Under the pieces are notes generated by a model. That model was not told the DNA's origin. It made no database searches and saw only the letters and a list, made by a program, of their open reading frames with translations. A program made the position numbers and the translations under genes. Positions 42,413-57,526 of a stretch of DNA of 64,000 nucleotides are shown piece after piece. How positions within the stretch are numbered: the first letter of the stretch is position 1; each line of letters opens with the position of its first letter. Origin of the DNA: Pandoraea thiooxydans (GTDB lineage: Bacteria; Pseudomonadota; Gammaproteobacteria; Burkholderiales; Burkholderiaceae). Location: contig NZ_CP014839.1 in the NCBI RefSeq assembly GCF_001931675.1, positions 2,418,001 through 2,482,000 on the forward strand, written 5' to 3'.

Positions 42413-42541
42413 TCGATCTACCACCTTATATGCCGGCCGTTGGATCCAAGCGCAAAAAATACCGGAATCGCCGCGATCTGGCGGCTCGCTTCACACCCGC
42501 GATCGCTTATGGCCGTTTTTAGTAATGGTCAGTAGCATACC

Positions 42542-43129
42542 TCACGTCCGGTGGCGCGTGCGGCGATCTGCCTGATCGGCGATCGAGCGAACGACCCTGG
42601 CCGGATTGCCGGCAACCAGGGTGTTCGGCGCAACGTCCCGGGTGACGACCGATCCGGCCGCCACGACCGAGTTCTCGCCGACCGTGACGCCGCCGATAAT
42701 GGTCGCGCCGGCGGCAATCCAGACGTTCCGCTCGATCGTGATGGGTTTTGCAATGACGCCATTGCGCCGCTGGGCGGGCTCGATGGGATGACCGGAGGTA
42801 ATGAGGCTCACGTTCGGCCCGATCATGACATCGTCGGCAATAGCGAGCCCGCCAAGATCATAAAAAGTGCAATTCTGATTGATGAAGACATTGCGCCCGA
42901 CACGGATATCGACGCCGCCGCTCGTATAGAACGGCGGAATCAATAGAAAGCTCTCGTCCACCGGCTTGCCGATCAGGTCGCCGAACAGGGCTCTGACCTC
43001 GTCGGCGTCGTTGAATGTCAGGCGGTTGAGCGCGGCGGTGATCGCCACCGCTCGTTTGACATTGGCCAGCATGGCCGCCGATTCGGGCGTTCCGCGGGGA
43101 ATTGTCCTGGTGCGATCGTCGTTGGCCAT
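42542..43129 (-). CDS. sugar O-acetyltransferase, LacA/Maa family
   Basis: A 195-residue left-handed beta-helix acetyltransferase. The N-terminal maltose-acetyltransferase helix region is followed by hexapeptide repeats (IRVGRNVFINQNCTFYD, IADDVMIGPNVSL). The catalytic histidine is in TSGHPIEP, and NVWIAAGATIIGGVTVGENSVVAAGSVVT completes the coil. It transfers acetyl from acetyl-CoA to a sugar hydroxyl. It sits 53 bases downstream of the MocR gene on the same strand. Confidence 0.87.
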   Translation of the reverse strand: MANDDRTRTIPRGTPESAAMLANVKRAVAITAALNRLTFNDADEVRALFGDLIGKPVDESFLLIPPFYTSGGVDIRVGRNVFINQNCTFYDLGGLAIADDVMIGPNVSLITSGHPIEPAQRRNGVIAKPITIERNVWIAAGATIIGGVTVGENSVVAAGSVVTRDVAPNTLVAGNPARVVRSIADQADRRTRHRT

Positions 43130-43182
43130 GCGTTTCTCAGCTCCATCAACGCGCCTGCGGCGAGCGGCGACAAATGGCTTGG

Positions 43183-44703
43183 TCAGTTGTCCAGGCACTG
43201 GCGCAATATGCGCGCCAGACGTCCGGCTTGCGCCGCATCGGCGACGTTCGCGAAGCCTATCACGAGGCCGCGCCTGGCGCGCCGCGCGCGGCTATTGGCA
43301 TACCAGATCGAAAGCGGCAGCACCCCAAGGCCCGCGTCGCGCGCGCGTGCTGCGACCGCGACGTCGTCCACCTGCGCGTGCGAGCCGGCGGCGAACTGCA
43401 CCGCGAACTGAATTCCGCCGCACGGCAAGTCGACCATCAGCCGCGGCCCGAACTCCTTTTCCAGTGCACGCACGATCAGCATGCGCCGCTGCGAGTAAAG
43501 GGCTCGCATCCGCTTCAGATGCCGCGCAAAATGCCCGTTCACCATGAAGTCCGCCACGGCTGCCTGCAAGAGCGTCGGCGAGCCGGCGTTCATGCTGTGC
43601 GCCACGCGCGCGACCCGTTCCACGGCCCGTTCGGGCACTACCGCGTATGCCAGCCGCAAGCCGGGAAACATCACCTTGCTGAACGTGCCGCAATAAATCA
43701 CCCGATCGCGCCGGTCGAGGCTCTTCAAGGCCGGCAGCGGCCGGCCCGAGTAGCGAAATTCGCTGTCGTAGTCGTCTTCGATGATCCAGCCGGACGCCTT
43801 CTGCGCCCAATCCAGCAGCGCCGCGCGCCTGGCCAGCGAGAGGGTCACCCCGAGCGGGCTCTGATGCGAGGGTGTCACCAGCGCGAAACGCGCCTGCGGA
43901 TCCAGCCGCATACCTTGCTCGACGTCGATCCCTTCTTCGTCGACCGGCACCGGCACCAGCTGCATGCCAGCCTCGATCAGAAAGTTGCGCGCCAGCAGAT
44001 AACCGGGATCCTCCATCCACAGGCGATCGTTCGAGCGCGCAAGACTGCGCAACACCAGTTCGAGTGTGGCCCGATACCCGCTGGTTACGAACACCTGCTC
44101 GGGCAGGCAGGTCACGCCGCGCGACAGCCCGAGATAAGTGGCGATATGCTCGCGCAGCGGCCGATAGCCGGCCGGATCGGGGTAAGCGAGCATCGCCTGC
44201 GCGCCGCCGCGCGCATGGTGCGACACAAGCCGGTTCCACACCTTGCGCGGAAAAACATCGAGCCCCGGCAGCCCGGGCTGCAACGGCCTCGGCTCGCCGC
44301 TCATGGCCACGGCAATGGGCGTTCGGCGCGCAGCGGCCTGACCGCCACTCGACACGTCGGGTGCCTGGTCTTCCTCGGTGCCGCGCCAGGCCAGCTCCGC
44401 CGCCGGCACCGGCTCGCGCGTCGAACGCGGCAACGACGCCGGCAGCGACGACGAAACGAACGTGCCCGCCGCGCCGCGCATCTGCAGGTAGCCCTCGTCG
44501 ACCAGAATCGTATAGGCCAGCTCCACCGTGCCGCGCGCCGCGTTCAACTGGGCGGCCAGCGCGCGCAGCGCGGGAACACGATCGCCGGGGCGCAAATGCC
44601 CGGCGGCGATCGCCGTCTTGAAACGCTCGCAGATCTGCAAATAGATCGGCAGAGGTTGCCCTCGATCTATTTCGATGGTCAATGTGGGAGGAGGCACGGT
44701 CAT
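43183..44703 (-). CDS. MocR-type GntR regulator with aminotransferase domain
   Basis: A 506-residue fusion. Residues 5-75 are a GntR winged helix (PLPIYLQICERFKTAIAAGHLRPGDRVPALRALA). Residues 130-500 are a class I aminotransferase fold with TSGYRATLELVLRSLA, EDDYDSEFRY and the PLP lysine in GTFSKVMFPGLRLAY. MocR proteins sense PLP or amino compounds. It is divergent from the NmrA-like gene and ahead of the acetyltransferase gene, so it may control either. The frame extends upstream to further ATGs; 44703 gives the family-like N-terminus. Confidence 0.9.
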   Translation of the reverse strand: MTVPPPTLTIEIDRGQPLPIYLQICERFKTAIAAGHLRPGDRVPALRALAAQLNAARGTVELAYTILVDEGYLQMRGAAGTFVSSSLPASLPRSTREPVPAAELAWRGTEEDQAPDVSSGGQAAARRTPIAVAMSGEPRPLQPGLPGLDVFPRKVWNRLVSHHARGGAQAMLAYPDPAGYRPLREHIATYLGLSRGVTCLPEQVFVTSGYRATLELVLRSLARSNDRLWMEDPGYLLARNFLIEAGMQLVPVPVDEEGIDVEQGMRLDPQARFALVTPSHQSPLGVTLSLARRAALLDWAQKASGWIIEDDYDSEFRYSGRPLPALKSLDRRDRVIYCGTFSKVMFPGLRLAYAVVPERAVERVARVAHSMNAGSPTLLQAAVADFMVNGHFARHLKRMRALYSQRRMLIVRALEKEFGPRLMVDLPCGGIQFAVQFAAGSHAQVDDVAVAARARDAGLGVLPLSIWYANSRARRARRGLVIGFANVADAAQAGRLARILRQCLDN

Positions 44704-44738
44704 GGCGGTTTCTCGGGCAACGGACGGCAAGCACATCA

Positions 44739-44782
44739 TGGACCAGTCGAATCGATAAAACTTGGCACTTACGACTGGGTCA
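44739..44782. promoter_or_regulatory. imperfect inverted repeat, possible MocR site
   Basis: TGGACCAGT (44739-44747) and ACTGGGTCA (44774-44782) match in seven of nine positions as an inverted repeat separated by 26 bases. They lie in the shared MocR/NmrA-like promoter region, where MocR proteins usually bind paired half-sites. The match is weak evidence. Confidence 0.3.
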
Positions 44783-44893
44783 TGATGTTCCCATAATAGC
44801 CTCATGCGATGCACCGGCGGCGATGGCTTGAACGAGATGCCGAGTCCGCCGGATTCATTCGAGCGTTCCCTTCCTTTATCTGGAGAATCTGTC

Positions 44894-45643
44894 ATGAAAA
44901 TCGTCGTCATCGGTGGTTCCGGCCTGATCGGATCGCGTCTGGTCAAGCTGCTTGGCGAGGCTGGCCACGAGGCGCTCGCCGCGTCGCCGCGTAACGGTGT
45001 CAATAGCGTGACGGGCGAAGGCCTGAGCGAGGCGCTGGCCGGCGCCGAAGTCGTCGTGGACGTGACGAATGCGCCGTCATGGGAGCCCCAGGCAGTACTC
45101 GATTTTTTCCGTGCGTCGGCGCGCAATCTGGGCAAGAGCGAAGTGGCCGCCGGCGTGCGCCATCACGTCGCCCTGTCCATCGTCGGCTGCGACCGCACGC
45201 CGGACAATGCGTACTTCGCCGCCAAGGTCGCGCAGGAAGAGGCGATCGCGGCGGCCGGCGTGCCGCACACCATCGTGCGTGCGACCCAGTTCATGGAGTT
45301 CATCGGCGGCATCGCCGATTTCAGCACGGTCGACGGCACGGTGCGCCTGGGCGACGGACTGTTTCAGCCGATCGCGGCGGACGACGTCGCGTCGATGCTC
45401 GCGCAGATCGCGCTGTGCCCGCCGCAAAACGGCATCGTCGAGATTGCCGGCCCGGACCGCGCCTCCTTTGCCGAGATCATGACGCGTTATTTGAGAGCCA
45501 CGGGCGACGCGCGACCGGTGGTGACCGATTCCGAGGCGCGCTACTACGGCGGCCTGGTCGAGCAGCAATCGCTCGTTCCGTTGGGCGATGCGCGAATCGG
45601 CCGCATCGCCCTCGACGGATGGCTGGCGCAAGCTACCCGATAA
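44894..45643 (+). CDS. NAD(P)-binding NmrA-like protein
   Basis: A 249-residue atypical SDR. The N-terminal Rossmann loop is VIGGSGLIGSRLVKLL. VVDVTNAPSWE, HHVALSIVGCDR, a YFAAKVAQEEAI (YxxxK) segment and VRATQFMEFIGG follow. Similar proteins act as quinone reductases or redox sensors. GGAG lies eight bases before the ATG. It is divergent from MocR. A decayed copy of its last 24 codons occurs at 50745-50816. Confidence 0.85.
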   Translation: MKIVVIGGSGLIGSRLVKLLGEAGHEALAASPRNGVNSVTGEGLSEALAGAEVVVDVTNAPSWEPQAVLDFFRASARNLGKSEVAAGVRHHVALSIVGCDRTPDNAYFAAKVAQEEAIAAAGVPHTIVRATQFMEFIGGIADFSTVDGTVRLGDGLFQPIAADDVASMLAQIALCPPQNGIVEIAGPDRASFAEIMTRYLRATGDARPVVTDSEARYYGGLVEQQSLVPLGDARIGRIALDGWLAQATR

Positions 45644-45665
45644 GCCGCCAGGAGCCTGGCAGGGA

Positions 45666-46331
45666 TCAGCGCACAAGTCCTTGAAGAAAATCCGGCACCG
45701 GGTATCCGATCGAGACGAGATATGCCGCCATCGCACCGGCCACCTTGCGCACGGCCGGGCGGGCCGTCATCCGCTCGCGCCAGGCCAGCAGGTTGGGCGT
45801 CTGCGCCGTCATCGGCGCTCCCTTGCGCGCCCCGAACAGTTGCGCCATATAAAAGGCAATGTCGGCGTACGAATAGCTCCCGGCCAGAAATTCCCGATTG
45901 CCGATCACCCGTTCCATGTACCGATAGCATTGCGACGCGCCCTCGCGCGCGGCCCGCGCCGCGGGGTCATCCGGCATGGCTTCAAGGCCCATCAGCCGGA
46001 TAATGTGCGGGAAGTAGATCTCATCGGAAGTATGCTCAAGCTGGCGCGCCATCGCGCGCACCCTGGCATCGGCCGGCCATAACGGCGTATCGGGCTGCAG
46101 GTCTTCAAGGTATTCGAAGATTTGCGTGGAATCGAAGATCTCCAGCGTTCCGTCGATCAACACCGGCACCTGACGCTTCGGGTTGATCCGCAATACATCG
46201 GGATGCTTCGGCTCGTAACCGCGCTGCGGATCGAACGGCGCCATCACCAGCTCGAAGTCGATGCCTTTCTCATGCGCCGCTATCTCCACCTTGGCGCCGA
46301 ACATGCTCAGCGGGCCGGAAATGATTCTCAT
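45666..46331 (-). CDS. glutathione S-transferase family protein
   Basis: A 221-residue two-domain GST. The thioredoxin-like N-domain starts MRIISGPLSMFGAKVEIAA and contains NPKRQVPVLIDGTLEIFDSTQIFEYLE, the glutathione-binding cis-proline and STQ motif. The helical C-domain contains GSYSYADIAFYMAQLF. GGGAGGAG precedes the ATG at 46331. It is divergent from the WYL regulator, which probably controls it through the palindrome between them. The substrate is unknown. Confidence 0.9.
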   Translation of the reverse strand: MRIISGPLSMFGAKVEIAAHEKGIDFELVMAPFDPQRGYEPKHPDVLRINPKRQVPVLIDGTLEIFDSTQIFEYLEDLQPDTPLWPADARVRAMARQLEHTSDEIYFPHIIRLMGLEAMPDDPAARAAREGASQCYRYMERVIGNREFLAGSYSYADIAFYMAQLFGARKGAPMTAQTPNLLAWRERMTARPAVRKVAGAMAAYLVSIGYPVPDFLQGLVR

Positions 46332-46469
46332 GGGTCGCTCCTCCCTGGATGTCATGCGCGACAATCTCCACCCGCATCCCGGCTCGACAGGAATCGAACT
46401 GCCCGGGCGTCCCGTCGGCCGTCACGCTGTTTGCCTCGATGGGGGATGTCGACAATAATAGGATCGTTA

Positions 46470-46490
46470 ACATGACATCTTGTGTCATGT
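46470..46490. promoter_or_regulatory. inverted repeat, candidate WYL-regulator operator
   Basis: ACATGACA and TGTCATGT form perfect 8-bp arms around a 5-base spacer, in the 180-base interval between the divergent GST and WYL genes, 22 bases before the regulator start. Confidence 0.6.
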
Positions 46491-46511
46491 ATTTTTACGA
46501 CCATATCCTTG

Positions 46512-47504
46512 ATGAAAGCCAGCCGCCTTTTATCGATCATGATGATGCTCCAGGCGCGCGGGCGCATGACCGCCCCGGCATTGGCGCAGGCGCTGGAGGT
46601 TTCCGAGCGCACCATCCTGCGCGACATCGATCAGCTCTCCAACGCTGGCGTGCCGATCTGGAGCGATCGCGGCCGCAACGGCGGATTTCAATTACGCGAG
46701 GGTTGGCGCACCGAGCTCACCGGCCTGACCGAACGCGAAGCTCATGCGCTCTTTCTGGCGGGCCTGCCCGAGCCGGCCACGGCGCTGGGGCTGGACGCCA
46801 TCGCGGCCTCGGCGCGGCTCAAAATGATTGCCAGTCTGCCGCCCGAATCGCGCGAGCAGGCCGACCGCGTCGCCAGCCGGCTTTATATCGATACCGTGGA
46901 CTGGTACCGCGCGCAGGAAACGCCGCCGCTGCTGCGCGAGGTCGCCGATGCCGTCTGGGGCGCGTACCGCATCGAAGTGAGGTACGAAAGCTGGCGCGGC
47001 ATGTCTCGCCGCGAACTCGAGCCGCTTGGCCTGGTGCTCAAGGGCGGCGCCTGGTACCTGGTCGCCAGGGTCGCGGGCCGGCCCGGCGCACTGACCTTCC
47101 GGCTGGCGAATATTCACGAACTCAAAAGTTCGGGGCGCCGCTTCAAGCGTCCTGCGCGGTTCGATCTGGCCGGGCACTGGCGTGAAGCGATGCATCGATA
47201 CGAGGCCGATCTTTATCGCCTGACGGCACACATCGCCGTGTCGCCACGCGGCGAAAAATGGTTGCTCAACGAGCGCATCAAGACCCTGCCCGTCGCGCGG
47301 GATGCGTGGAGCCCGGAAGTGCCGGCAGGTTGGCAAGCGCTTTCGATGCCCATCGAATCCATCGAGCATGGCGTGCGCAAGCTGCTCGGCTACGCCAGCG
47401 AGGTAAAGGTCATCGGGCCGCCAGCGCTCAAGCACAAGCTCATCGAAGCGCTGTCGCGAGTGAATGACTTGTATCGACAAGCGCACGAATCCGACGAGCA
47501 ATGA
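46512..47504 (+). CDS. HTH/WYL-domain transcriptional regulator (YafY type)
   Basis: A 330-residue regulator. Residues 1-60 form an HTH_11 domain (RLLSIMMMLQARGRMTAPALAQALEVSERTILRDIDQL). Residues 140-225 hold the WYL domain (IEVRYESWRG, GLVLKGGAWYLVARVAGR), followed by a C-terminal WCX extension. WYL regulators respond to nucleic-acid or nucleotide ligands in characterised cases. No ribosome site is evident before ATG 46512, so the transcript may be weakly translated or leaderless. It is divergent from the GST gene. Confidence 0.88.
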   Translation: MKASRLLSIMMMLQARGRMTAPALAQALEVSERTILRDIDQLSNAGVPIWSDRGRNGGFQLREGWRTELTGLTEREAHALFLAGLPEPATALGLDAIAASARLKMIASLPPESREQADRVASRLYIDTVDWYRAQETPPLLREVADAVWGAYRIEVRYESWRGMSRRELEPLGLVLKGGAWYLVARVAGRPGALTFRLANIHELKSSGRRFKRPARFDLAGHWREAMHRYEADLYRLTAHIAVSPRGEKWLLNERIKTLPVARDAWSPEVPAGWQALSMPIESIEHGVRKLLGYASEVKVIGPPALKHKLIEALSRVNDLYRQAHESDEQ

Positions 47505-47672
47505 TCTCGAGTCGCGCCAATATCGGCCGACCGTTCAATCGAGTCACCTCCCGAGGCGACCAAGGGGACCCCGAAGCAGGCGCGCGAAACCCGATTCACG
47601 TCGGCTCAGCCCCACCGCTTGACCGATCCTCTGCCCGCTCTCGCTCCACACGCCTGCATCTGCTGGCGAAAT

Positions 47673-47710
47673 ATATATACAGTTTATCTGTACAGATAAA
47701 CTGTATATAT
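47673..47710. promoter_or_regulatory. 38-bp perfect palindrome, marR operator
   Basis: The sequence is perfectly self-complementary for 19 bases on each side of a TGTACA centre. The inner arms contain CAGTTTATCTG and the outer ends are ATATAT. It ends 14 bases before the marR start, so a bound dimer would cover the promoter. MarR proteins typically autorepress through such sites. A damaged copy lies at 54744-54781. Confidence 0.85.
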
Positions 47711-47724
47711 GCTACATTCCCGCC

Positions 47725-48177
47725 ATGAGCACACTACCCAGCCAATCCGACGCTTCTGCGTCGACCGCCCTGGCCGGCGAATTGCGCATTTGCGTGAGCA
47801 AGCTGATTCGGCGCTTGCGCGAGCAGGCCAATGCGGGCGACTTCACCTCCTCCCAGCGATCGGTGCTGCTGCGCCTCGATCGCGACGGCCCCGCCACCGT
47901 TTCCGCGCTGGCGCGGGCCGAGAGCGTGCGCCCGCAGTCGATGCGGGTCACGGTGGCCAGCCTGGAGGCGATGGGCGCCGTGCGCGGCGAGCCCGATCCG
48001 CACGACGGCCGGCAAACGCTGATCGACCTGAGCCCGAAGTTTCGCAAGACCCTCAAGGCCAGCCGCGCCGCGAAGGACGACTGGCTGCTGCACGCACTGC
48101 AAGCGCAGCTCTCACCCCAGGAGCAGGCCCAGCTCGCCGCAGCGGTAAAACTGCTGGAGCGGCTCGCCGACTTCTGA
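47725..48177 (+). CDS. MarR family transcriptional regulator
   Basis: A 150-residue MarR protein. The winged helix-turn-helix spans about residues 45-105 (SSQRSVLLRLDRDGPATVSALARAESVRPQSMRVTVASLEAMGAV, then the wing EPDPHDGRQ). The flanking helices needed for dimerisation are intact. It heads a four-gene operon with an isochorismatase-fold hydrolase, a small membrane protein and an MFS exporter. That layout is typical of ligand-induced efflux and detoxification. Its front half is duplicated in the chimeric frame at 54796. Confidence 0.92.
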   Translation: MSTLPSQSDASASTALAGELRICVSKLIRRLREQANAGDFTSSQRSVLLRLDRDGPATVSALARAESVRPQSMRVTVASLEAMGAVRGEPDPHDGRQTLIDLSPKFRKTLKASRAAKDDWLLHALQAQLSPQEQAQLAAAVKLLERLADF

Positions 48178-48206
48178 CGCCCGGCAACCCCTCTCTCACT
48201 ATCAAC

Positions 48207-48770
48207 ATGGCACTTACTTCGCTCGACACCAATACCGCGCTGATCGTCGTCGATCTGCAGCAAGGCATCGTCGGTTATCCCCTCATTCACCCGATCGGCG
48301 ACATCGTGGCGCGCACCCGTGCGCTGCTCGGCGCATTTCGCCGGCTCGGCCTGCCGGTCGTGCTGGTCAACGTCGCCGGCGGCGCGCCGGGCCGCACCGA
48401 GCGGCCCCGCCTGCCGGAGCCGCTCCCGCCCGGCTGGACCGATCTCATCCCCGAGCTCGATCGGCAGCCCGGCGATATCGTCGTGACCAAGCGAACCTGG
48501 GGCGCCTTCGCCAGCACCGATCTCGAGCGCCGCCTGAAGGCGCTGGACGTGACCCAGGTGGTCGTCACCGGCGTGGCCACCGGCACCGGCGTCGAGGCGA
48601 CCGCTCGCCAGGCATACGAACAAGGGTTCAACGTGACGCTGGCTCTGGACGCGATGACCGACACCCGGCCCGAGGCGCACGCGTATAGCATCGCCAACGT
48701 CTTTCCCCGGCTGGGCGAGACCGGCACGGCCGAACAGGTCATCGGTCTGCTCGACACACGGAGCGCCTGA
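48207..48770 (+). CDS. isochorismatase-fold cysteine hydrolase lacking the cysteine
   Basis: A 187-residue protein of the isochorismatase-like superfamily. D16 (VVDLQQG) and K95 (VTKRTWGAF) of the usual Asp-Lys-Cys triad are present. The third position is Gly128 (GVATGTGVEATAR) instead of cysteine, as in some isochorismatases and uncharacterised members. A nicotinamidase-type mechanism is therefore unlikely. It is the second gene of the marR operon, 29 bases after marR. Only a poor ribosome site is seen. The substrate is unknown. Confidence 0.82.
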   Translation: MALTSLDTNTALIVVDLQQGIVGYPLIHPIGDIVARTRALLGAFRRLGLPVVLVNVAGGAPGRTERPRLPEPLPPGWTDLIPELDRQPGDIVVTKRTWGAFASTDLERRLKALDVTQVVVTGVATGTGVEATARQAYEQGFNVTLALDAMTDTRPEAHAYSIANVFPRLGETGTAEQVIGLLDTRSA

Positions 48771-48772
48771 CC

Positions 48773-49102
48773 ATGCCCTGGCTTGATCTGCTGTCGTGGT
48801 GCCTCGGCGGCGCCGCGCTCGCCAACGCCGTGCCGCACTTCGTCAGCGGCATCATGGGCAAGCCGTTTCAGAGCCCGTTCGCCAAGCCGCCCGGAGAGGG
48901 TCTTTCATCATCGACGGTGAACCTGCTCTGGGGATTCTTCAATCTATGCGTCGGCTATGTGCTGGTCTGCCGTGTCGGCGACTTCACGCTCAAAAGCACG
49001 ATGGATGCCGCCGCGCTCGGGCTCGGCATCCTGGTGCTCGGCCTGCCGATGGCGCGGCACTTCGGCCGCTTTCACGGCGGCAACCTGTCGGAGCGCGCCT
49101 GA
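48773..49102 (+). CDS. small membrane protein of the marR operon
   Basis: A 109-residue protein with three hydrophobic segments (about 5-27, 48-66 and 77-95). A conserved-looking ANAVPHFVSGIMGKPFQSPFAKP lies between the first two. The start is two bases after the preceding stop and the end is two bases before the exporter gene, so it is firmly inside the operon. It resembles small hypothetical membrane proteins next to MFS genes in Burkholderiales. Function unknown. Confidence 0.75.
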   Translation: MPWLDLLSWCLGGAALANAVPHFVSGIMGKPFQSPFAKPPGEGLSSSTVNLLWGFFNLCVGYVLVCRVGDFTLKSTMDAAALGLGILVLGLPMARHFGRFHGGNLSERA

Positions 49103-49104
49103 GC

Positions 49105-50346
49105 ATGCCTTCGACTGGCGTCTTTCGTTCGCTGCGAAACTACAACTATCGCGTCTGGGCGGCAGGCGCGCTGGTGTCCAACGTGGGCACGTGGATGCAG
49201 CGCACGGCCCAGGACTGGCTGGTGCTCACGCAGCTCACGCGCAACAATGCGTCGGCGGTGGGCATCGTCATGGCACTCCAGTTCGGGCCGCAATTGCTGC
49301 TGTTGCCCTGGACCGGTTTCGCCGCCGATCACTTCAATCAGCGCAAGCTGTTGATGGCGACCCAGGCAATCATGGGCGCGCTGGCCATCGCGCTGGGCCT
49401 GCTTACCGTCACTGGCCTGGTGCAGCTCTGGCAGGTCTATGTGTTCGCGTTTCTGTTCGGCTGCGCCTCGGCATTCGACGCGCCGGTGCGCCAGACCTTC
49501 GTGGGCGAACTGGTGGGCGACGCCGACCTTTCCAATGCCGTGGCGCTCAATTCGATGTCGTTCAACGCCGCGCGCATGCTCGGCCCGGCTGCGGCGGGGC
49601 TGGTCATCGCCTCGGTCGGCACCGGCTGGGCGTTTTTGCTCAACGGCGCCAGTTTCGCCGCGGTGCTCGCCTCTTTGTCGCTGTTCCGGGTCGCCGAGCT
49701 GCGCCCCAACGTGCGGGCTCACCGCGCCCCGGGCGGCATGCTGGAAGGGTTTCGCTACGTCGCCTCGCGCCCCGACCTCGTGGCGATGCTGGTCATGCTG
49801 TTTCTGATCGGCACCTTCGGCCTGAACTTCCCGATCTTCATCTCGACCATGGCCGTGCGCGTGTTTCACACCGACGCGCGCGGCTACGGCGTGCTCTCCT
49901 CGATCATGGCCATCGGCACCGTCACCGGCGCGCTGCTTGCCGCGCGGCGCGAGCGGGCGCGCTTCACTTCGCTGCTCACCGGCGCCGCCGTCTTCGGGCT
50001 CGGCTGCACGCTGGCGGCCATCGCGCCCAGCTACTGGCTGTTTGCCGGCGCGCTGGCCATCACCGGCGTGGCCACCCTGACCTTCACCAACACGAGCAAC
50101 AGCCTAATGCAGCTCTCGACCGAGCCCGCCATGCGCGGCCGGGTCATGGCGCTGCGCGTGGGCATCGCACTGGGCTGCACGCCAATCGGCGCGCCTATCG
50201 TCGGCTGGGTAGCTGACCATCCCGGCCCGCGCTGGTCGCTCGCGGTCGGCGCGGCGTCGGGTTTCGCCGCCGCGCTGGTCGCCGTCTACGCGATCCGGCG
50301 GCAAATGCATTTGCGGCATGTCGAAGGACATGGCGAGGCGGATTGA
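49105..50346 (+). CDS. MFS exporter, EntS/DHA3-like
   Basis: A 413-residue, 12-helix transporter. FRSLRNYNYRVWAAGALVSNVGTWMQRTAQDWLVL is the typical start of the EntS-like branch, followed by FAADHFNQRKLL (motif A) and FNAARMLGPAAAGLVIA. Such proteins export siderophores or drugs. It is the last gene of the marR operon. Its final 71 codons are nearly identical to the second half of the chimeric frame at 54796-55272 (two base differences over about 185 bases), pointing to a recent duplication. Confidence 0.9.
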   Translation: MPSTGVFRSLRNYNYRVWAAGALVSNVGTWMQRTAQDWLVLTQLTRNNASAVGIVMALQFGPQLLLLPWTGFAADHFNQRKLLMATQAIMGALAIALGLLTVTGLVQLWQVYVFAFLFGCASAFDAPVRQTFVGELVGDADLSNAVALNSMSFNAARMLGPAAAGLVIASVGTGWAFLLNGASFAAVLASLSLFRVAELRPNVRAHRAPGGMLEGFRYVASRPDLVAMLVMLFLIGTFGLNFPIFISTMAVRVFHTDARGYGVLSSIMAIGTVTGALLAARRERARFTSLLTGAAVFGLGCTLAAIAPSYWLFAGALAITGVATLTFTNTSNSLMQLSTEPAMRGRVMALRVGIALGCTPIGAPIVGWVADHPGPRWSLAVGAASGFAAALVAVYAIRRQMHLRHVEGHGEAD

Positions 50347-50583
50347 CGCTGATCGGCGTAGCGGCGGCGATAAGCCGGGGCCGGCGTCTTGCACGCTCAT
50401 CGCACGGCCACTTACAGGGAATAATCTCGCGCAGTCGTCACAAGATTTCTGCTTCTTGCGAGTACTCGTTGCTGGGCAGAGCGCTTTACCACCCCAGCCG
50501 CGCGGTTTCTTCAGAACGGCGCGAGGGGTCAGGATGTTCCCGTTCTCGAAAACATTTCTTGAAACACTATTCCCGATTACATA

Positions 50584-50605
50584 TCATCTCAACGAGTTGA
50601 GATGA
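50584..50605. promoter_or_regulatory. 22-bp inverted repeat
   Basis: Perfect 10-bp arms (TCATCTCAAC / GTTGAGATGA) flank a two-base centre. The repeat directly precedes the remains of a nucleotidyltransferase gene. It may be an orphaned operator or a recombination scar. Confidence 0.5.
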
Positions 50606-50704
50606 GAAAAATCGCTACTCGGGGTCGACGTCGACTTGTTGACACCTGGCGACCTGCCGACAAAATTCCGGGCCAAAGTGCTCGCGCAGGCGCAGCCGGT
50701 ATGA
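50606..50704 (+). pseudogene. 3' fragment of a MntA-type nucleotidyltransferase antitoxin gene
   Basis: After an in-frame stop the plus strand reads EKSLLGVDVDLLTPGDLP and then TKFRAKVLAQAQPV before TGA. The pattern (L)LGxxVDLLTPGDLPxxFRxxVLAEAxPV is the C-terminus of MNT-domain nucleotidyltransferases of the MntA/HepT toxin-antitoxin family. The N-terminal part with the GSxxRG and DxD catalytic motifs is gone. Its stop overlaps the ATG of the next fragment (ATGA), exactly as in intact mntA-hepT pairs. The call is by motif memory, not a search. Confidence 0.6.
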
Positions 50705-50744
50705 GCGGAAATCGACTGCCCGATTATCTCGACCACATATGGCA
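50701..50744 (+). pseudogene. 5' stub of a HepT (HEPN, DUF86) toxin gene
   Basis: The stub reads MSGNRLPDYLDHIWQ, matching the first helix of DUF86/HepT proteins (RLxDYLEHIxxAIxxI). The RX4-6H catalytic region is absent because the sequence changes at about 50745 into a copy of the tail of the NmrA-like gene. The toxin is therefore certainly non-functional if this call is right. Confidence 0.55.
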
Positions 50745-50816
50745 AGCAGCAATCGCTCGTTCCGCTTGGCGATGCGCGAATCGGCCGCGTCAACCTCGAC
50801 GGGTGGCTAGCGCAAG
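50745..50816 (+). pseudogene. duplicated tail of the NmrA-like gene
   Basis: About 72 bases closely match the last codons of the gene at 44894-45643 (starting at its AGCAGCAATCGCTCGTTCCG). Several substitutions are present, and there is no upstream portion. The source frame would encode EQQSLVPLGDARIGR. It is fused directly to the hepT stub. Confidence 0.75.
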
Positions 50817-51102
50817 AAAAAATCGTAATTGGCGCCCTGCGTGAAACGTCGATCGAGGATGGCTTCCACTACCCCGGCCGGGGTTGCGCGGGCCGTTTGG
50901 GTTGCATCCGAAGATCGAACACCTGCCGCGCACGACGACTTCCAGCGCCAAAGCCCCCGCGATACCTGATCGGTCATCGCTTTGGTCACACTATCGTGGT
51001 TCGATGTGCTTCCGATGCAAGCTGTGCCCGCTTGCGCACGGCGCCCTCGGGGCGGCGCCGTACACCACGGACAGGCTGGCGGGCAAAGACGGAGCCAGTG
51101 CG
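50817..51102. other. gene-free interval downstream of the autotransporter
   Basis: About 290 bases without a convincing gene. An 8-bp stem (ACGGCGCC / GGCGCCGT, 51038-51061) lies in it but has no T-run on either strand. Together with 50347-50583, which also shows nothing recognisable, this is a decayed interval of about 750 bases holding the fragments listed separately. Confidence 0.5.
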
Positions 51103-54100
51103 TTACCAGCTATAACGGTAGCCCACTTGGCCAAATACGCCGCGCCGCCGCTCGCCGCCCAGGTTATGTGTGTATTTGAGGTTGACATACAACGTCGACG
51201 CCTTGCCCATGCTCGCGGTCGCGCCGACTCCGAGTTCGTACCAGGTTTTCGCCGGAGACTCTGCGAATGAGGTATCGCCGACGACGACCTGCCCCGGCGA
51301 GATGAAATCCCGCAAGAGATCGGCGGTGAAATACGGGGTTAGATGGCTTGTCTTGGCATCGTTCGCCAGATTGGGTCTGAACAGGCGAAAGCCGATCCGG
51401 CCACGCAACTCGTTCGACGTATTGCCCGAGACGGCCGATACGCGGTCGCTGAAGGGGTTCAGATGCACATATTGATAAAGCAATTGCATCTGCGGCTCGA
51501 TGGCGAGCGACGACACGCCGAGCCGCACCGGTTTGCCGGCTTCGGCCGACACGCCTGCGCCTAAGCCATTCTGAGTCGCGCCGCCGCCATAGACGTCGCT
51601 ATATTTGTCGTGATAGTGGGTCAATTGCGCGACGCCGTCGAAGTAAGTGCCGTCGGGCAGATAGCGTGTCCAATAGCCGCCGATCGACTGCGCCTGCATC
51701 GTCAGCGAGCCGGCGCGGGACGTGAGCGCCGCATTGATGGCGCGCTGGCTGTCATCGAAGGTCGACGACGCGGTGCCGAGCGTGACCATCGCGCCGACGT
51801 GCGTGCTGCCGCCGGCAGCCGCATGCGCGAGCGTCCAGTCCTTTCCGAATTGTGCGAAATAGGTTCGCGCCTGGGCAGAGAAGCGGTCGTTGCCGTTCAT
51901 GGTCAGGTTCTGGCCGGCGACCCGCGCCCACACGCCATCGCGATGGGCGGGCTGGGCACGTTCGATCGCCGCGATGTCACCCACCCGTTCGTGCAGGCGG
52001 CTCAATATCGAGAACCCATAATCCGCATTGAGCTGCGGCGCCAACGAGTAGCCGACCACCGCCGGACGGTATGCCGTCGGCGCGGTGGCCGGATCGGAGT
52101 TCGCCGGCGGGCTCGAGCCGCCTGTTGATCCCGAACCGCCGCTGGGCTGTGCCAGGAGCTTCGAGCGCAGATACCAGTCGCTCGGGGTGGCGCCGCCTTG
52201 GTAAAGCAGATATTGATAGGCGCCGGCCTGGACCGGGCTGGCAAGATGAAATGCGCCGGACGCCGACGTGCCGCCGACTTGAACGACGCGAATTCCGTCG
52301 CCCACGGTTTGCGCGCCGCTTCCCGTGCCTTGCACTTGGATGCCGGTAGTGCCGCTGGCATTGCCACCGATGACGAGTGTGTCCGTTTGTGTTGCCGCGC
52401 CCCCTTGGTTGAGTACCGTATTGATAGCGAGCGTGCCCGACGCGCCGACGTAATTGCCGCGAACGTTCAACATGTTGCCGGTTTGGCCGGCTGCGGCGCC
52501 CACTTGCAGCAAGCCGGTGTTCGACAAATCGCCGCCGATCGTAAAAGTTCCACTGGTGTTGCCGGCGAATGCCGGCATCGCACTCGCGACAGCCAGCGTG
52601 CCGAGATTGGTCACGCTGCCAGGTGCGCTGCCGTAGCCGCCGAGCGTCGCGCCGGCGGCCACCAGAGTCGCACCAGTGCCCAGCGAGGCGCTTGCATGCG
52701 CCGAATCGCCGACCGCGAGCGCACCGGCCGACACCGTCGTCGTCCCCAAGTAGGTGTTCGCCGCATCCAACACAGTCGTACCGCTGCCTGTCTGTCCCAG
52801 CGAGCCGCTGCCCGATACCGTGCCGCTGAAAGTCGTTGCATCAGAGCGATCGAACACCAGCGTGCCATTGTCGGTCACGTTGCCGACGATGCTACCGCTC
52901 GTGCCGCCACTGCCAAGCTGCAATGTGCCGGCGGAAATTGTCGTGCCGCCCGTATAGGTGTTCGCCGCATCCAACACAGTCGTACCGCCGCCTGTCTGTC
53001 CCAGCGAGCCGCTGCCCGATACCGTGCCGCTGAAGATCGTCGCGTCAGACCGATCAAACGCAAGCATGCCATTGTCGGTCACGTTGCCGACGATGCTACC
53101 GCTCGTGCCGCCACTGCCAAGCTGCAATGTGCCGGTGGAAATTGTCGTGCCGCCTGTATAGGTGTTCGCGCCGGTCAACACAAGCGTGCCGCTGCCCGCC
53201 TTGGTCAACGCGCCCGCGCCGCTGATACCCTGTCCGAGTTGTGTCGTGAATCCTTGCGTATCGATCGTGCCGTTCGCGCTCGTGATTGAGACCGCGCGGG
53301 TAGGTGCAAGACTCAGATTCTGATTGGCCTGCAGCGTCCCGCCATTCAACACTAGCGCCCCGCTGGCCGCGCCGATCGCGGCGTCGGCGCCGATCGCCAG
53401 CGTGCCCTGGGAAATCGTCGTGCCGCCCGAGTAGGTGTTGCCGTTGGCCCCAGATGGCGCGAGCGTCAAGGTGCCCTGCCCGGTCTTCTCGACCGCGCCG
53501 GTGCCGGACAGCGCGCCCGTGTAAGTGCCGGCGTCTGGCTGCGCGAACCGCACCAGCCCGTTGTCGAGCACCGAGGGCGGCAAACTTTGCGCGCGCGCCT
53601 GGAGCGTGCCGGCCGGATCGACGATCACGCTGCCCGTGTAGTTGCTGTTATTGCCGGTCAACGCTAGCGTGCCGCCTTGCACTTCGGCCCGCGTCACCCC
53701 CGTGATCGTGCCGGTGAGCGACCAGGTTCCAGAATCCGCCTTGTAAAGGGTCTGAAAGTTGGTGAAGTTGCCGGGCAGGCTCGCCGTGCCGGTGCCGTTG
53801 AGATAAACGGTATTGGTGCCGCCCCCGCCGTCCATATTGCCGGTGATCGTCGAGCCGGTATAGAGGCGCAGCGTATCGTCGCCCCCGGCGAAGACGAGGT
53901 TGCCGATGACCTGGCCGCGATTGGTGAAATCCACCGCGCCGTTGCCGCTGGCGCCGATGACATCGCCCGGGGCCTGAATGACACCGGTCGCATCGTTAAT
54001 GATGGTATTCGTACCGCTAAGGTTCTGAAACCAGATGGCCGCCGCGTGATCCGCGCGAATCAATCCGTCATTGACGATGGTATTGCCGCTGCCTTCCAGA

Positions 54101-54549
54101 TTGACCGCTTCGGCAGATGTCTCGGTGCCGAGCGAGAGCACCTGACCGTTTTGCTGGACCGTCAACTGGCCGTTGTTCGCGAACTCGATGGTGTCCGCGC
54201 CGGTGCCGTAGAGCCCGCTGGAACTCACGCCGGTGGCGCTGACCGTGCCGCCCGACTGGACAGTGACGTTCGCGTTGTCGCGCAAGCTGATCGCGTTTTC
54301 ATCGCCAACCGCGACGCTCGAACCGTTCTGGACTGTCACGGTTCGGTTGTCTTCACTCGCTACGTTGCCATTGCCGATCGTCGACGTAGTCGGATTCGGC
54401 GCATTCAAATCACAGATCGTCGATTGCCCGGTGGTCGCGCACGCCGCGTGCGCAGTGCTCATGCATGCGGCCTGAAAAACCAGGAAAGGAAATAGCAGAA
54501 TTGCATAAGCAGCAGGCTTCGCATGCCGTGATTTTGCGTCGCAAGCCAT
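51103..54549 (-). CDS. type Va autotransporter with repeat-rich passenger
   Basis: A 1148-residue protein. Residues 1-35 are a signal peptide (AILLFPFLVFQAACMSTAHA). Residues 36 to about 860 form a beta-helical passenger with many autotransporter-associated repeats (GSGTLVLTGANTYTGGTTI). The last 280 residues are a beta-barrel domain starting around DGVWARVAGQNLTMNG and ending in the aromatic YRYSW needed for Bam-dependent insertion. A 204-bp tandem repeat occupies residues 463-599. No protease motif is seen in the passenger, so a surface adhesin or similar role is likely but unproven. GAGGG precedes the ATG, and a 13-bp palindrome (CCGATT-A-AATCGG) lies 51 bases upstream. Confidence 0.9.
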   Translation of the reverse strand: MACDAKSRHAKPAAYAILLFPFLVFQAACMSTAHAACATTGQSTICDLNAPNPTTSTIGNGNVASEDNRTVTVQNGSSVAVGDENAISLRDNANVTVQSGGTVSATGVSSSGLYGTGADTIEFANNGQLTVQQNGQVLSLGTETSAEAVNLEGSGNTIVNDGLIRADHAAAIWFQNLSGTNTIINDATGVIQAPGDVIGASGNGAVDFTNRGQVIGNLVFAGGDDTLRLYTGSTITGNMDGGGGTNTVYLNGTGTASLPGNFTNFQTLYKADSGTWSLTGTITGVTRAEVQGGTLALTGNNSNYTGSVIVDPAGTLQARAQSLPPSVLDNGLVRFAQPDAGTYTGALSGTGAVEKTGQGTLTLAPSGANGNTYSGGTTISQGTLAIGADAAIGAASGALVLNGGTLQANQNLSLAPTRAVSITSANGTIDTQGFTTQLGQGISGAGALTKAGSGTLVLTGANTYTGGTTISTGTLQLGSGGTSGSIVGNVTDNGMLAFDRSDATIFSGTVSGSGSLGQTGGGTTVLDAANTYTGGTTISAGTLQLGSGGTSGSIVGNVTDNGTLVFDRSDATTFSGTVSGSGSLGQTGSGTTVLDAANTYLGTTTVSAGALAVGDSAHASASLGTGATLVAAGATLGGYGSAPGSVTNLGTLAVASAMPAFAGNTSGTFTIGGDLSNTGLLQVGAAAGQTGNMLNVRGNYVGASGTLAINTVLNQGGAATQTDTLVIGGNASGTTGIQVQGTGSGAQTVGDGIRVVQVGGTSASGAFHLASPVQAGAYQYLLYQGGATPSDWYLRSKLLAQPSGGSGSTGGSSPPANSDPATAPTAYRPAVVGYSLAPQLNADYGFSILSRLHERVGDIAAIERAQPAHRDGVWARVAGQNLTMNGNDRFSAQARTYFAQFGKDWTLAHAAAGGSTHVGAMVTLGTASSTFDDSQRAINAALTSRAGSLTMQAQSIGGYWTRYLPDGTYFDGVAQLTHYHDKYSDVYGGGATQNGLGAGVSAEAGKPVRLGVSSLAIEPQMQLLYQYVHLNPFSDRVSAVSGNTSNELRGRIGFRLFRPNLANDAKTSHLTPYFTADLLRDFISPGQVVVGDTSFAESPAKTWYELGVGATASMGKASTLYVNLKYTHNLGGERRRGVFGQVGYRYSW
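52754..53161. repeat. two tandem 204-bp repeats inside the autotransporter gene
   Basis: Units 52754-52957 and 52958-53161 are almost identical and encode 68 residues each (for example GSIVGNVTDNGTLVFDRSDAT, then FSGTVSGSGSLGQTG). Base differences are few and scattered. Partial related units continue on both sides. In-frame expansion or contraction by 68 residues is expected by recombination. Confidence 0.9.
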
Positions 54550-54743
54550 CGGTACCCTCTGAAGGAGTCAATTCGCGATGGCATTGTATGGTTGGCTGAC
54601 CGATTAAATCGGAATCTTAACAATATTTGATAATTCGGCTTGGCTGTCCGACTGAGGACCACCATTGGTGAAACCACCTATCGACCCGCTCGGAATTTCC
54701 CGACTACGGCACAAAGCCTCGTTGCGGGAATTCCGCCCTATAG

Positions 54744-54781
54744 ACATACACAGTCAATCTGTACAGATAAACTGCATATAT
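54744..54781. promoter_or_regulatory. decayed copy of the 38-bp marR palindrome
   Basis: The right arm and centre (CTGTACAGATAAACTG) are kept, while the left arm carries changes (CAGTCAATCTG instead of CAGTTTATCTG) and the AT ends are altered. It lies 14 bases before the chimeric frame, the same distance as in the intact operon. Confidence 0.75.
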
Positions 54782-54795
54782 GCCACATTCCATCC

Positions 54796-55272
54796 ATGGC
54801 AAAACAATCATGCACACCCAACGCACCGCAAGCGTCCGCCCCGGCCGGCGAATTGCGCATTTGCGTGAGCAAGCTGATTCGGCGCTTGCGCGAGCAGGCC
54901 AATGCGGGCGACTTCGCCTTCTCCCAGCGATCGGTGCTGCTGCGCCTGGATCGTGACGGCCCGGCCACCGCGTCCGCGCTGGCGCGGGCCGAGAGCGTGC
55001 GCCCGCAGTCGATGCGAGTCACGGTGGCCAGTCTGGAGGCAATGAGCGCCGTGCGCGGCCGGGTCATGGCGCTGCGCGTGGGCATCGCACTGGGCTGCAC
55101 GCCAATTGGCGCGCCTATCGTCGGCTGGGTAGCCGACCATCCCGGCCCGCGCTGGTCGCTCGCGGTCGGCGCGGCGTCGGGTTTCGCCGCCGCGCTGGTC
55201 GCCGTCTACGCGATCCGGCGGCAAATGCATTTGCGGCATGTGGACGGCCGCGGGGAGCCCGATCCGCGCTGA
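54796..55272 (+). CDS. chimeric MarR-MFS frame from duplication and deletion
   Basis: A 158-residue open frame. Residues 1-86 copy the MarR protein of 47725 through its recognition helix (RPQSMRVTVASLEAM). Residues 88-158 copy the last two helices of the MFS exporter of 49105 (GRVMALRVGIALGCTPIGAP onward), with a new tail HVDGRGEPDPR. The join falls on TGCGCGGC, present in both parents (47981-47988 and 50132-50139). The implied deletion is 2151 bp, a multiple of three, so the frame is kept. The MarR wing and dimer helices are lost, so normal repressor function is unlikely. It may be a relic or, less likely, a small membrane-bound DNA-binding protein. Confidence 0.7.
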   Translation: MAKQSCTPNAPQASAPAGELRICVSKLIRRLREQANAGDFAFSQRSVLLRLDRDGPATASALARAESVRPQSMRVTVASLEAMSAVRGRVMALRVGIALGCTPIGAPIVGWVADHPGPRWSLAVGAASGFAAALVAVYAIRRQMHLRHVDGRGEPDPR

Positions 55273-55393
55273 ACGGCCCATAGCGGGATCTGTCCAGGTA
55301 CATGCGCCGAACGCTGCGCGCCGTGCGGGCACGGCGCCGCCGACGACCTGGGTATGGTGAGTGCCGCGAGCCATGGCGCTCGACAGCAAGCCG

Positions 55394-56437
55394 TCACTCG
55401 CCGCGCCCGCGCTGGACTCGCTTCAACCGGCGTTGCCCAATGAATGCCGCAATCAGGCCGACGAACGCGAACAGCCCGCCCTCGCCCCAGATCAAAATAT
55501 TCGTCGTTGGGTCTTCGCCCGGTATCTTGCCGCCGAGGGTGATGTCCCGCTTGAGCACCGCAGTCCATGGGCCCACGTCGTAGCCGGCTTCCCGAAAAGC
55601 GTCGGCGACACCTTCACGCGGCCCGCCCGGCGACAGCTCTCCTTCCAATGCGCCGGGCAGATCGGCGATGTCCTGCGCGTCGTGATAGCGCGGAATCGTA
55701 TCGTCCCGCTCAAGCAGATAGATGCGCCCGCCAGAATGCCAGCCGGGCGGAACGATCGGGGTGTAGTAGTCGCGATAGGCGTGCCCACGGATCGAATAAT
55801 CACGCGCGAACACGCCGTCGAGAAGAGGCGTCCCGTTGACCACGTGCACCCAGGGGCTCGAGTTGCCCAGCACGATCGGTGCATCCGGGCGCATCGTCAC
55901 CGGCGTCAGAGGCTTTCCGGCGTCGGTGTTGGTTGCAATATTCGTCCAAACAGCCACGACAAGAGCGATGATGAAACTGGCTGCCGCGAAGTACAGGCCG
56001 GCATTGCGCGTGCGGCGCGCGATCCTCAGTTTCCCGGCGCCATCGGCGGCATCCCATCGTGCACGGGACTCGGCCGTCAGTTCGGCGCGGGATCGGCTTG
56101 CCCTGCGAATTTGCGATCCGAGATCGGCAATCACCGGGTTATCGGGCCACAGCCGCTGCAGCCTGCCAATGACGAACGGCGGCCCCAGGAAGATCACGAT
56201 CGCCGCAATCCCGGCGGCGAGCAAAATATTCGATCCGCCGAATAGCGCTTCCTGCCAGCGCAGCAGGAAAGTGAACGGCCCCCGATCCTCGATGAGGCTA
56301 TAGATGACAGCCCCATAACCCCCGAACCACCAGAGCAGCATCAGGATACCGACCAGCCATGCCGGAACCCGGCGACGGCCGCTCGCAGTCCCGGGTTGCT
56401 GTTGCTTGCTTGCGCCTGCGCGTTTGCCGTTTCGCAT
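55394..56437 (-). CDS. hypothetical multi-pass membrane protein, 347 aa
   Basis: The protein has a basic N-terminus (RNGKRAGASKQQQPG) and hydrophobic segments at about 25-47, 70-92 and 147-168. A large extracytoplasmic-looking domain (170-315) follows and a final helix is at about 318-336. The soluble domain contains PWVHVVNGTPLLDGVFARDYSIRGHAYRDYYTPIVPPGW and GGRIYLLERDDTIPRY. No family is recognised. The gene is 18 bases downstream of the GlxA-type regulator on the same strand, so the two may be cotranscribed. Confidence 0.75.
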   Translation of the reverse strand: MRNGKRAGASKQQQPGTASGRRRVPAWLVGILMLLWWFGGYGAVIYSLIEDRGPFTFLLRWQEALFGGSNILLAAGIAAIVIFLGPPFVIGRLQRLWPDNPVIADLGSQIRRASRSRAELTAESRARWDAADGAGKLRIARRTRNAGLYFAAASFIIALVVAVWTNIATNTDAGKPLTPVTMRPDAPIVLGNSSPWVHVVNGTPLLDGVFARDYSIRGHAYRDYYTPIVPPGWHSGGRIYLLERDDTIPRYHDAQDIADLPGALEGELSPGGPREGVADAFREAGYDVGPWTAVLKRDITLGGKIPGEDPTTNILIWGEGGLFAFVGLIAAFIGQRRLKRVQRGRGE

Positions 56438-56455: not shown

Positions 56456-57427
56456 TCATTTACGCTTCGGACTGATGACCGACATCGTAGCAGCGAACCG
56501 GTCGGCGCGGCGAATCGCCTGCGGCGGCATGCCGTAGAGCTTCACGAAGGCCCGCCGCATCCGTTCCGGATCGCTGAAACCCACGGCTTGGGCAATCTGC
56601 TCGATCGGCTCCGCGCCGGCTTGCAAGCGCGTGCGGGCCGCTTCGACGCGCAGCCGTTCGACGGCCCGCGCGGGGGTCTCGCCGGTCTCGCGCCGAAAGG
56701 CCCGCCCGAACTGCCGCACGCTGAGGTGGGCGGCTTGCGCCAGCCGCTCGAGCGGCAACGGTTCGTGCAGGTGATCGCGCGCGAAGGCAAGCGCCAACCG
56801 AATCCGGTCCGATTCCGGCGCCATTTGCGACATGGGCGAGAACTGCGACTGGCCGCCCGAGCGACGATGGTAGACGACCAACTCGCGGGCCACTTTGTGC
56901 GCCACCTCGCCGCCATGATCGGCCTCGATCAGCGCCAGCGCCAGGTCGATGCCGGCGGTGATGCCGGCCGATGTCCAGACACCGCGATCCGCAATGAAAA
57001 TCCGGTCAGCGTCCACGTTGACTGCCGGATAGTCCCGCTGCAATCGTTGCGCCACCCGCCAATGGGTGGTCGCGCGCCGGCCGTCGAGCAACCCGGCTTC
57101 GGCCAGCAGGAACGCCCCGGTACAGACGCTTGCCACGCGCGGCGTGCGGCGGCTGAGCGCGGCGACGGCCTGCACCAGGTCGGGCGCCAGCATCGAAGCG
57201 GTATTACCGCCGACCACGATCAGCGTTTGCACATCCGCGGCGTGCACCGGCAGCGTCGCCACCGGCAGGCCGCCGCTGCCCTGCACCAGGCCGCCGGTGC
57301 GCGAGAACGCCTCGAGCGCGTAACACGGCCGCCCCACGACCGCCGCGACCGATTCGAAGGCACCGAACGGCCCCGCGAGGTCGAGGATCTGATGGCCCGG
57401 ATAAACGAAAAATCCCACTTTGTGCAT
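56456..57427 (-). CDS. GlxA-type regulator: DJ-1/PfpI domain plus AraC HTH
   Basis: A 323-residue regulator. Residues 1-170 are a DJ-1/PfpI domain with LDLAGPFGAFE and the nucleophile-elbow cysteine in ASVCTGAFLLAEAGLL. Residues 215-310 are an AraC double helix-turn-helix (PLPLERLAQAAHLSVRQFGRAFRRETGETPARAVERLR). The start at ATG 57427 gives the usual N-terminus MHKVGFFVYPGHQILDLAGP. It is divergent from a second DJ-1 family gene, which it probably controls. Confidence 0.9.
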   Translation of the reverse strand: MHKVGFFVYPGHQILDLAGPFGAFESVAAVVGRPCYALEAFSRTGGLVQGSGGLPVATLPVHAADVQTLIVVGGNTASMLAPDLVQAVAALSRRTPRVASVCTGAFLLAEAGLLDGRRATTHWRVAQRLQRDYPAVNVDADRIFIADRGVWTSAGITAGIDLALALIEADHGGEVAHKVARELVVYHRRSGGQSQFSPMSQMAPESDRIRLALAFARDHLHEPLPLERLAQAAHLSVRQFGRAFRRETGETPARAVERLRVEAARTRLQAGAEPIEQIAQAVGFSDPERMRRAFVKLYGMPPQAIRRADRFAATMSVISPKRK

Positions 57428-57526
57428 GGTGGCGTATTTTAAGGGATCTACGTCCTTTACGCCATTCCCCGTTGCGGCCATCATCAACCTCGGTACGAAC
57501 ATTCACGCACAGACGGAGAACCACAG

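Follow-up and report, generated by a model that had tools for sequence, protein, structure and literature searches.

The N- and C-terminal helices of the MarR fold are its dimerisation helices, and an MFS transporter has about twelve transmembrane helices. Among described proteins, the closest to the two parts of the gene discussed here are the Rv0880-type MarR regulators (PDB 4yif and 2hr3; NCBIfam NF052438) and the MFS exporters of families PF05977 and PF07690. The closest described process is homology-facilitated illegitimate recombination (HFIR), for which PMC3240628 reports illegitimate joins with junction homologies of 3-10 bp and, for E. coli conjugation, duplications of 109-950 bp that followed single crossover of circles missing part of a homology arm. 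The likeness to our locus lies in foreign DNA that adjoins a short resident duplication, with 3-10 bp of microhomology at the illegitimate junction (8 bp here). The difference is that HFIR, as described, removes resident DNA as a rule; at our site nothing native has been lost relative to the nearest relative. Judged by the openings of their abstracts, no published reports of MarR-MFS fusions, or of fusions by tandem duplication and microhomology, were recognised as this case.

The window we analysed is the whole stretch of 64,000 nucleotides from Pandoraea thiooxydans (contig NZ_CP014839.1, positions 2,418,001 to 2,482,000), and coordinates refer to it unless otherwise marked. It contains an open frame of 158 aa at 54796..55272 on the plus strand, in which the N-terminus of a MarR regulator runs on, in frame, into the final ~71 residues of an MFS exporter. 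The MarR-derived part (54796..55051) covers the first four helices, without the wing and the last two helices; the 8-bp junction TGCGCGGC lies at 55052..55059, and the MFS tail (55060..55272) holds two hydrophobic segments. The junction sequence is present in both parents, with copies at 47981, 50132 and 55052. The in-frame MarR-MFS chimera of the preliminary description is real, and so is the spacing of 2151 bp between the parental sites (50132 minus 47981). Two direct repeats in the window connect the chimera to its parents, one MarR-like of 300 nt (54746-55045 versus 47675-47974, 87% identity) and one MFS-like of 231 nt (55047-55277 versus 50127-50357, 94% identity). A random marR/MFS join would share at least 8 bp with a probability of 0.00046, and we therefore take the microhomology as the signature of a genuine recombination junction. 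That the frame survived is unremarkable, because 26 of the 45 position pairs formed by 8-mers common to marR and the MFS gene are in frame; it is weak evidence for a new gene. Chance resemblance of the chimera to marR and the MFS gene was rejected on the identity of the repeats and the junction probability.

The parents belong to an intact operon at 47725-50346 on the plus strand, which we call P1. Its marR (47725..48177) scores above the cut-off for Pfam MarR and MarR_2, and is followed by an isochorismatase-family hydrolase (48207..48770; PF00857), a 109-aa protein (48773..49102) that matched neither Pfam nor NCBIfam at E <= 0.001, and the 413-aa MFS exporter (49105..50346; PF05977 and PF07690); the two middle genes are missing from the chimera. 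A 190-bp tract of the exporter gene, 50132..50321, differs from 55052-55241 at two positions, both synonymous. From 55242 on, the end of the chimeric ORF departs strongly from the MFS end of the operon, a departure that the preliminary description missed. In the marR core (71 codons) the chimera differs from P1 by 11 changes, and the 16 codons ahead of the core hold 21, with the DNA upstream diverged as well; the preliminary description understated this divergence at the 5' end.

The nearest relative genome compared was that of Pandoraea sp. MAG FW106-10_bin.9 (hereafter G024; its locus is L028), the single close relative in the comparison, so that lineage B, as defined below, is one sequence. 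The preliminary description had proposed looking in related genomes for an intact second operon; this one carries a single copy, followed by the same DNA as is found after the chimera. Window 41177-50320 aligns along L028 935-10086, and 55048-56501 matches L028 9894-11349 in one piece at 90%. Since the single operon of G024 directly precedes DNA of the type found downstream of the chimera, the tail of the chimera occupies the ancestral site; and since that downstream DNA is native in G024, everything in the window from ~50322 up to the junction is additional DNA. In five other Pandoraea loci (L029-L033) the operon is common to all and the flanks differ, with flank matches in two loci only, short ones of 102-350 bases at 74-78%. 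Farther downstream, about 100 bp of G024 (L028 11349-11454) are absent at window 56498-56501, close to where the gene at 56456-57502 has its 3' end.

We then compared the operon (P1), the chimera and G024 column by column, counting the columns at which one of the three is odd. Given in the order chimera/P1/G024, the counts were 21/4/6 of 54 at 54672-54741 (poorly alignable), 8/1/2 of 54 at 54742-54795, 19/2/0 of 51 at 54796-54846, 1/0/2 of 72 at 54847-54918, 8/1/2 of 130 at 54919-55048, 2/1/15 of 185 at 55049-55233, 1/9/4 of 39 at 55234-55272, and 8/47/8 of 114 at 55273-55400, where P1 aligns poorly. Ancestry is therefore reciprocal: at the 5' end the outlier is the chimera, and at the 3' end it is the MFS gene of the intact operon, P1 being the odd sequence at 9 of the 39 columns opposite 55234-55272. 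The contrast between the 5' end, 54742-54846 (chimera to P1, 27:3), and the 3' end, 55234-55272 (1:9), has a Fisher p of 7e-6. The exporter gene of the intact operon ends, at 50322-50346, in a C-terminus (HVEGHGEAD) divergent from both G024 and the chimera. By its sequence, the exporter in use thus seems to be of hybrid make at the C-terminal end, and this odd C-terminus probably arose through the same history as the chimera.

The two halves of the chimera also differ in age. In a marR tree of 16 rows chosen from the loci, the chimera, P1 and G024 form a clade with support 98/98, within which P1 and G024 pair at 92/93, just below the tool's star (95/80), and the chimera lies outside the pair. 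Its marR thus split off before or about when those species separated. Polarised by the majority base (4 of 5) of five Pandoraea outgroups, the 21 sites at which P1 equals G024 and the chimera differs show the outgroup base in the chimera at 7 and in P1/G024 at 9, with the remaining sites (at most 5) showing it in neither, in a tally that pools all kinds of site. This split indicates that the chimera owes much of its distance to changes along its own branch. Within the marR core dS is 0.13 between P1 and the chimera, 0.11 between P1 and G024, and 0.195 between the chimera and G024; in the MFS tail it is 0.038 between P1 and the chimera as against 0.271 between P1 and G024. Changes between P1 and the chimera relative to those between P1 and G024 number 11:7 in the core and 2:17 in the tail (Fisher p = 0.0019; 0.023 per site). 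The separate ages suggested in the preliminary description are borne out by this difference, although the contrast is weaker on synonymous changes alone (7:6 in the core and 2:12 in the tail; p = 0.046, or 0.17 per synonymous site). From these distances we conclude that the marR half is old, as old as the separation of the species or older, whereas the MFS tract is of recent date. The core dN/dS is 0.20 between the chimera and P1 versus 0.06 between P1 and G024, and the higher value may reflect the chimera's past as an intact gene.

The extra DNA consists of a divergent MFS end, gene debris, a minus-strand autotransporter gene, and an operator with the 5' part of a marR. The debris (50357..51099) resembles the end of an ORF in another locus (L112) and includes an NmrA-like fragment. 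Translated by eye, the fragment 50615-50704 is similar to the final part of an ORF, L112 1547-1843 (3' end), which we take to be an MNT-type nucleotidyltransferase, and 50615-50747 also holds what we read by eye as presumably the start of an overlapping HEPN-like frame. This MNT-type/HEPN-like fragment, 50615-50747, is fused to the NmrA-like gene fragment. The latter, 72 bp at 50745-50816, is 90% identical to a gene end at 45561-45632, the gene itself being presumably NmrA-like. Gene order is alike in the two places, with an NmrA-like 3' fragment ahead of the chimera's marR and an NmrA-like gene ahead of the native one, which points to a block-wise second copy within the clade and not to a distant donor. 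Matches to the debris (50314-51150) were found in 9 of 32 genomes of the genus, and matches to 51103-55060 in 26 of the 32, this genome included in both counts.

The autotransporter gene (51103..54549, minus strand) was assigned by Pfam. G024 has a counterpart of its block (51100-54657) with 95% identity, but elsewhere in the genome (C12), and a 12-kb query around the G024 autotransporter (L145 4000-16000) found in this genome the block and three weak places at 70-78%. With a dS of 0.142, the gene is closer to its G024 counterpart than are 11 other genes compared (0.188-0.412), and the block was probably transferred horizontally, either later than the core genes diverged or independently of their divergence. 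Among the matches listed for the 32 genomes of the genus, none outside the window places the autotransporter beside a marR match. Within the gene, at 52724-53131, lie two tandem 204-nt repeats that are 90% alike.

We think it probable that the chimeric ORF is a recombination scar between two diverged operon lineages and not a working gene, and most likely a non-adaptive remnant. The locus contains DNA of two lineages of one marR-isochorismatase-orf-MFS operon: lineage A, native and common to G024, and lineage B, which split off before or about the separation of the species. Material of lineage B (the MFS gene end, the debris, the autotransporter gene and the 5' marR with its operator) lies between the A-type operon and the A-type MFS tail. 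The fusion would have been made by a microhomology join at TGCGCGGC, and the 190-bp MFS tract would have been made or homogenised recently through homologous exchange with the intact operon. A second operon lineage, with recent exchange or import, is needed because ancestry is reciprocal at the two ends and the downstream DNA is native. Lineage B is most likely an old tandem or imported second copy that has since decayed. Several points temper the reading of the ORF as a scar: lineage B is known from one sequence, the support for P1 with G024 is under the star, much of the chimera's distance lies on its own branch, the contrast in age is weaker on synonymous changes, the frame is still open, the marR core keeps a dN/dS of 0.20, and the operator is preserved.

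As to the order of events, which we infer, we slightly prefer a route in which most genes of an old tandem copy disappeared, the autotransporter came in, a deletion took place at the microhomology, and 190 bp of the copy were recently homogenised with the intact operon. The duplicate would then have been lost in G024, where recombination that collapsed the two copies into one yields precisely the observed hybrid. A one-step route is possible, though we hold it somewhat doubtful: lineage-B DNA would have entered via a homologous crossover in the MFS tail together with an illegitimate join at the 8-bp microhomology, either by homology-facilitated illegitimate recombination or by single crossover of an illegitimately closed circle. 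It would produce the fusion and the duplication of ~190 bp of MFS tail at once, with no 2151-bp deletion of a resident copy, and G024 need not have collapsed a duplication. In favour of this route, the microhomology limits the near-identical tract on the left and the switch of P1 to divergent sequence limits it on the right, and PMC3240628 reports junction homologies of 3-10 bp and duplications of 109-950 bp. Against this, the tract would keep an A/B difference after a reciprocal single crossover, save where repair converts it to one parent. The donor, moreover, must carry a lineage-B MFS end upstream of a lineage-B marR, in tandem or circularised. We prefer the tandem-copy route because such an arrangement appears in no listed match: among the matches listed in 32 genomes, the autotransporter stands beside marR in the window alone (surroundings were inspected for G024). 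As to a homologous crossover at the other end, P1 switches at 50322 from G024-like to divergent sequence, and the search of 32 genomes of the genus turned up no donor genome.

Could the chimera nonetheless act as a gene, with a product that carries an HTH fragment tethered to the membrane and contacts MarR or the MarR operator? We consider this very unlikely. The open frame speaks for it, and so does the control region. A pattern match predicts an operator palindrome, CAGTTTATCTGTACAGATAAACTG, for the intact operon at 47680..47703, and an operator predicted for the chimera, CAGTCAATCTGTACAGATAAACTG, lies at 54751..54774 with 10 of 12 symmetric pairs. Allowing up to three mismatches, CAGTNNATCTGTACAGATNNACTG has just two matches in the genome, one ahead of the intact marR and the other ahead of the chimera, while its reversed control had 0 matches in the genome. 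In 51 of 72 loci marR is preceded by a CTGTACA/TGTACAG core, a count from which six loci that repeat a contig already included (L034, L037, L040, L045, L049 and L052) were dropped, and from which 5 of the 77 other loci (L028-L110), those without a marR match or upstream DNA, were excluded. Neither copy showed a sigma-70-type promoter in consensus scans of 54550-55400 and 47500-50500, and 54550-55400 was also scanned for terminators with no match. Because the operator sequence is intact the chimera may be transcribed, possibly under MarR control, and if intact MarR binds the palindrome, the chimera is probably co-regulated with the operon.

The predicted product argues against function. In the model of the intact MarR (mean pLDDT 84.4) helices span residues 7-34, 42-54, 59-66, 70-82, 104-128 and 131-149, and the strands of the wing 86-90 and 98-102. 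A fold search with it gave Rv0880, Rv0042c and 2hr3 as the best solved-fold matches, which confirms the family and nothing more. Since the MarR part of the chimera ends at residues 86-88, the wing strands and the helices at 104-128 and 131-149 lie at or beyond the junction; the recognition helix is presumably retained, but the complete winged HTH of a MarR-family regulator is not. The mean pLDDT of the chimera model is 58.9, with ten-residue blocks over the MarR part at 43 to 63, values that compare uncleanly with those of the intact protein because the two AlphaFold models were built on different alignments; the low confidence may be partly due to this. The chimera had no Pfam MarR or MarR_2 match at E <= 0.001, and matched HTH_20 alone, at 19.8 bits versus 27. 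The intact MarR matches the Rv0880-type family NF052438 over nearly its whole length and the chimera over residues 17-86 only, lacking the wing and last two helices; both scores, 90.2 and 37.4, are far under the cut-off of 220. An alignment of 31 sequences (A1) has 30 invariant MarR columns, of which 11 come after residue 88. Three substitutions in the chimera's core relative to P1, T41A, S42F and G84S, occur in none of the 31 sequences (position 41 is T in 30 and S in one), and a fourth, V59A, is present in one, 29 having V. DNA binding and dimerisation have, we infer from these losses, disappeared.

The tail fares no better as a transporter. By hydropathy, its two hydrophobic segments span roughly residues 90-114 and 119-142, which could favour a membrane-bound product; they correspond to the last two of the 413-aa exporter, and by a simple scan the chimera lacks the other 8 of 10. 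Its MFS_1 score of 22.0 bits is below the cut-off of 33.4, and a protein predicted to have two hydrophobic segments presumably cannot act as a transporter. The preliminary description had proposed a DNA-recognition helix on a membrane tail; with the wing and both C-terminal helices gone and the HTH modelled at low confidence, such a DNA-binding, membrane-tethered product is not supported by the models, and the product is probably inert. The open frame and the 190-bp tail with 0 nonsynonymous changes (n = 2) may reflect weak constraint.

Nor did we find a second chimera of this kind in relatives. The 26-mer across the junction has an exact match in this genome only, among 398 genomes searched, and matches with up to 3 mismatches in 16 of the 398; it is a weak test, since its first base alone separates the chimera from an intact MFS gene, and the matches in two of these genomes (G334 and G338, 3 mismatches each) likewise start with G. 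We also examined 77 loci drawn from relatives, with the best 80 of 177 retained. In nine of them the matched range starts at residues 60-80 and crosses the junction (L089, L095, L097, L098, L099, L102, L104, L107 and L109). Eight of these have a separate marR match ~2-2.4 kb upstream, that is, an intact operon, and in the remaining one, L099, the range begins at the end of a contig. Conservation of the fused ORF was accordingly seen in neither the 398 genomes, by the weak 26-mer test, nor the 77 loci. Among plasmid records, 14 matched, with 0 covering 80% of the query.

The origin first put forward, a recent copy of the present operon (47725-50346) followed by internal loss of 2151 bp, we now regard as highly improbable. 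The junction, spacing and frame are all as that account claims, and a fast-decaying copy would show much of its marR distance on its own branch, as the chimera does. Against it, the chimera's marR falls outside P1 and G024 and is older than the MFS half, the 5' end of the chimera and the MFS 3' end of the operon are each odd relative to G024, and the DNA downstream is native to the site. An assembly artefact through a collapsed or mis-joined repeat, for which direct repeats of 231 and 300 nt provide the material, can hardly be credited in a genome that is one contig of 4,464,185 bases, with many private bases in the chimera and an adjoining 3.5-kb gene, absent here in G024, that is beyond the reach of a self-mis-join of the operon.

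There is a small chance of a regulatory side effect via the chimera's operator or product. In one version, to which we give scarcely any credence, the chimera would be expressed only upon release of MarR from its operators, and its truncated, membrane-anchored HTH would pair with MarR monomers, draw the repressor to the membrane and so prolong induction of the exporter operon; if true, it would be a dominant-negative regulator born from recombination. The locus is a readable case of two histories: its ends differ reciprocally in ancestry, a microhomology join connects them, and one tract was homogenised not long ago. A warning follows too: because over half of the 8-mers shared by these parents are in frame, little can be concluded about a new gene from a chimera that keeps its frame in GC-rich, codon-biased DNA.
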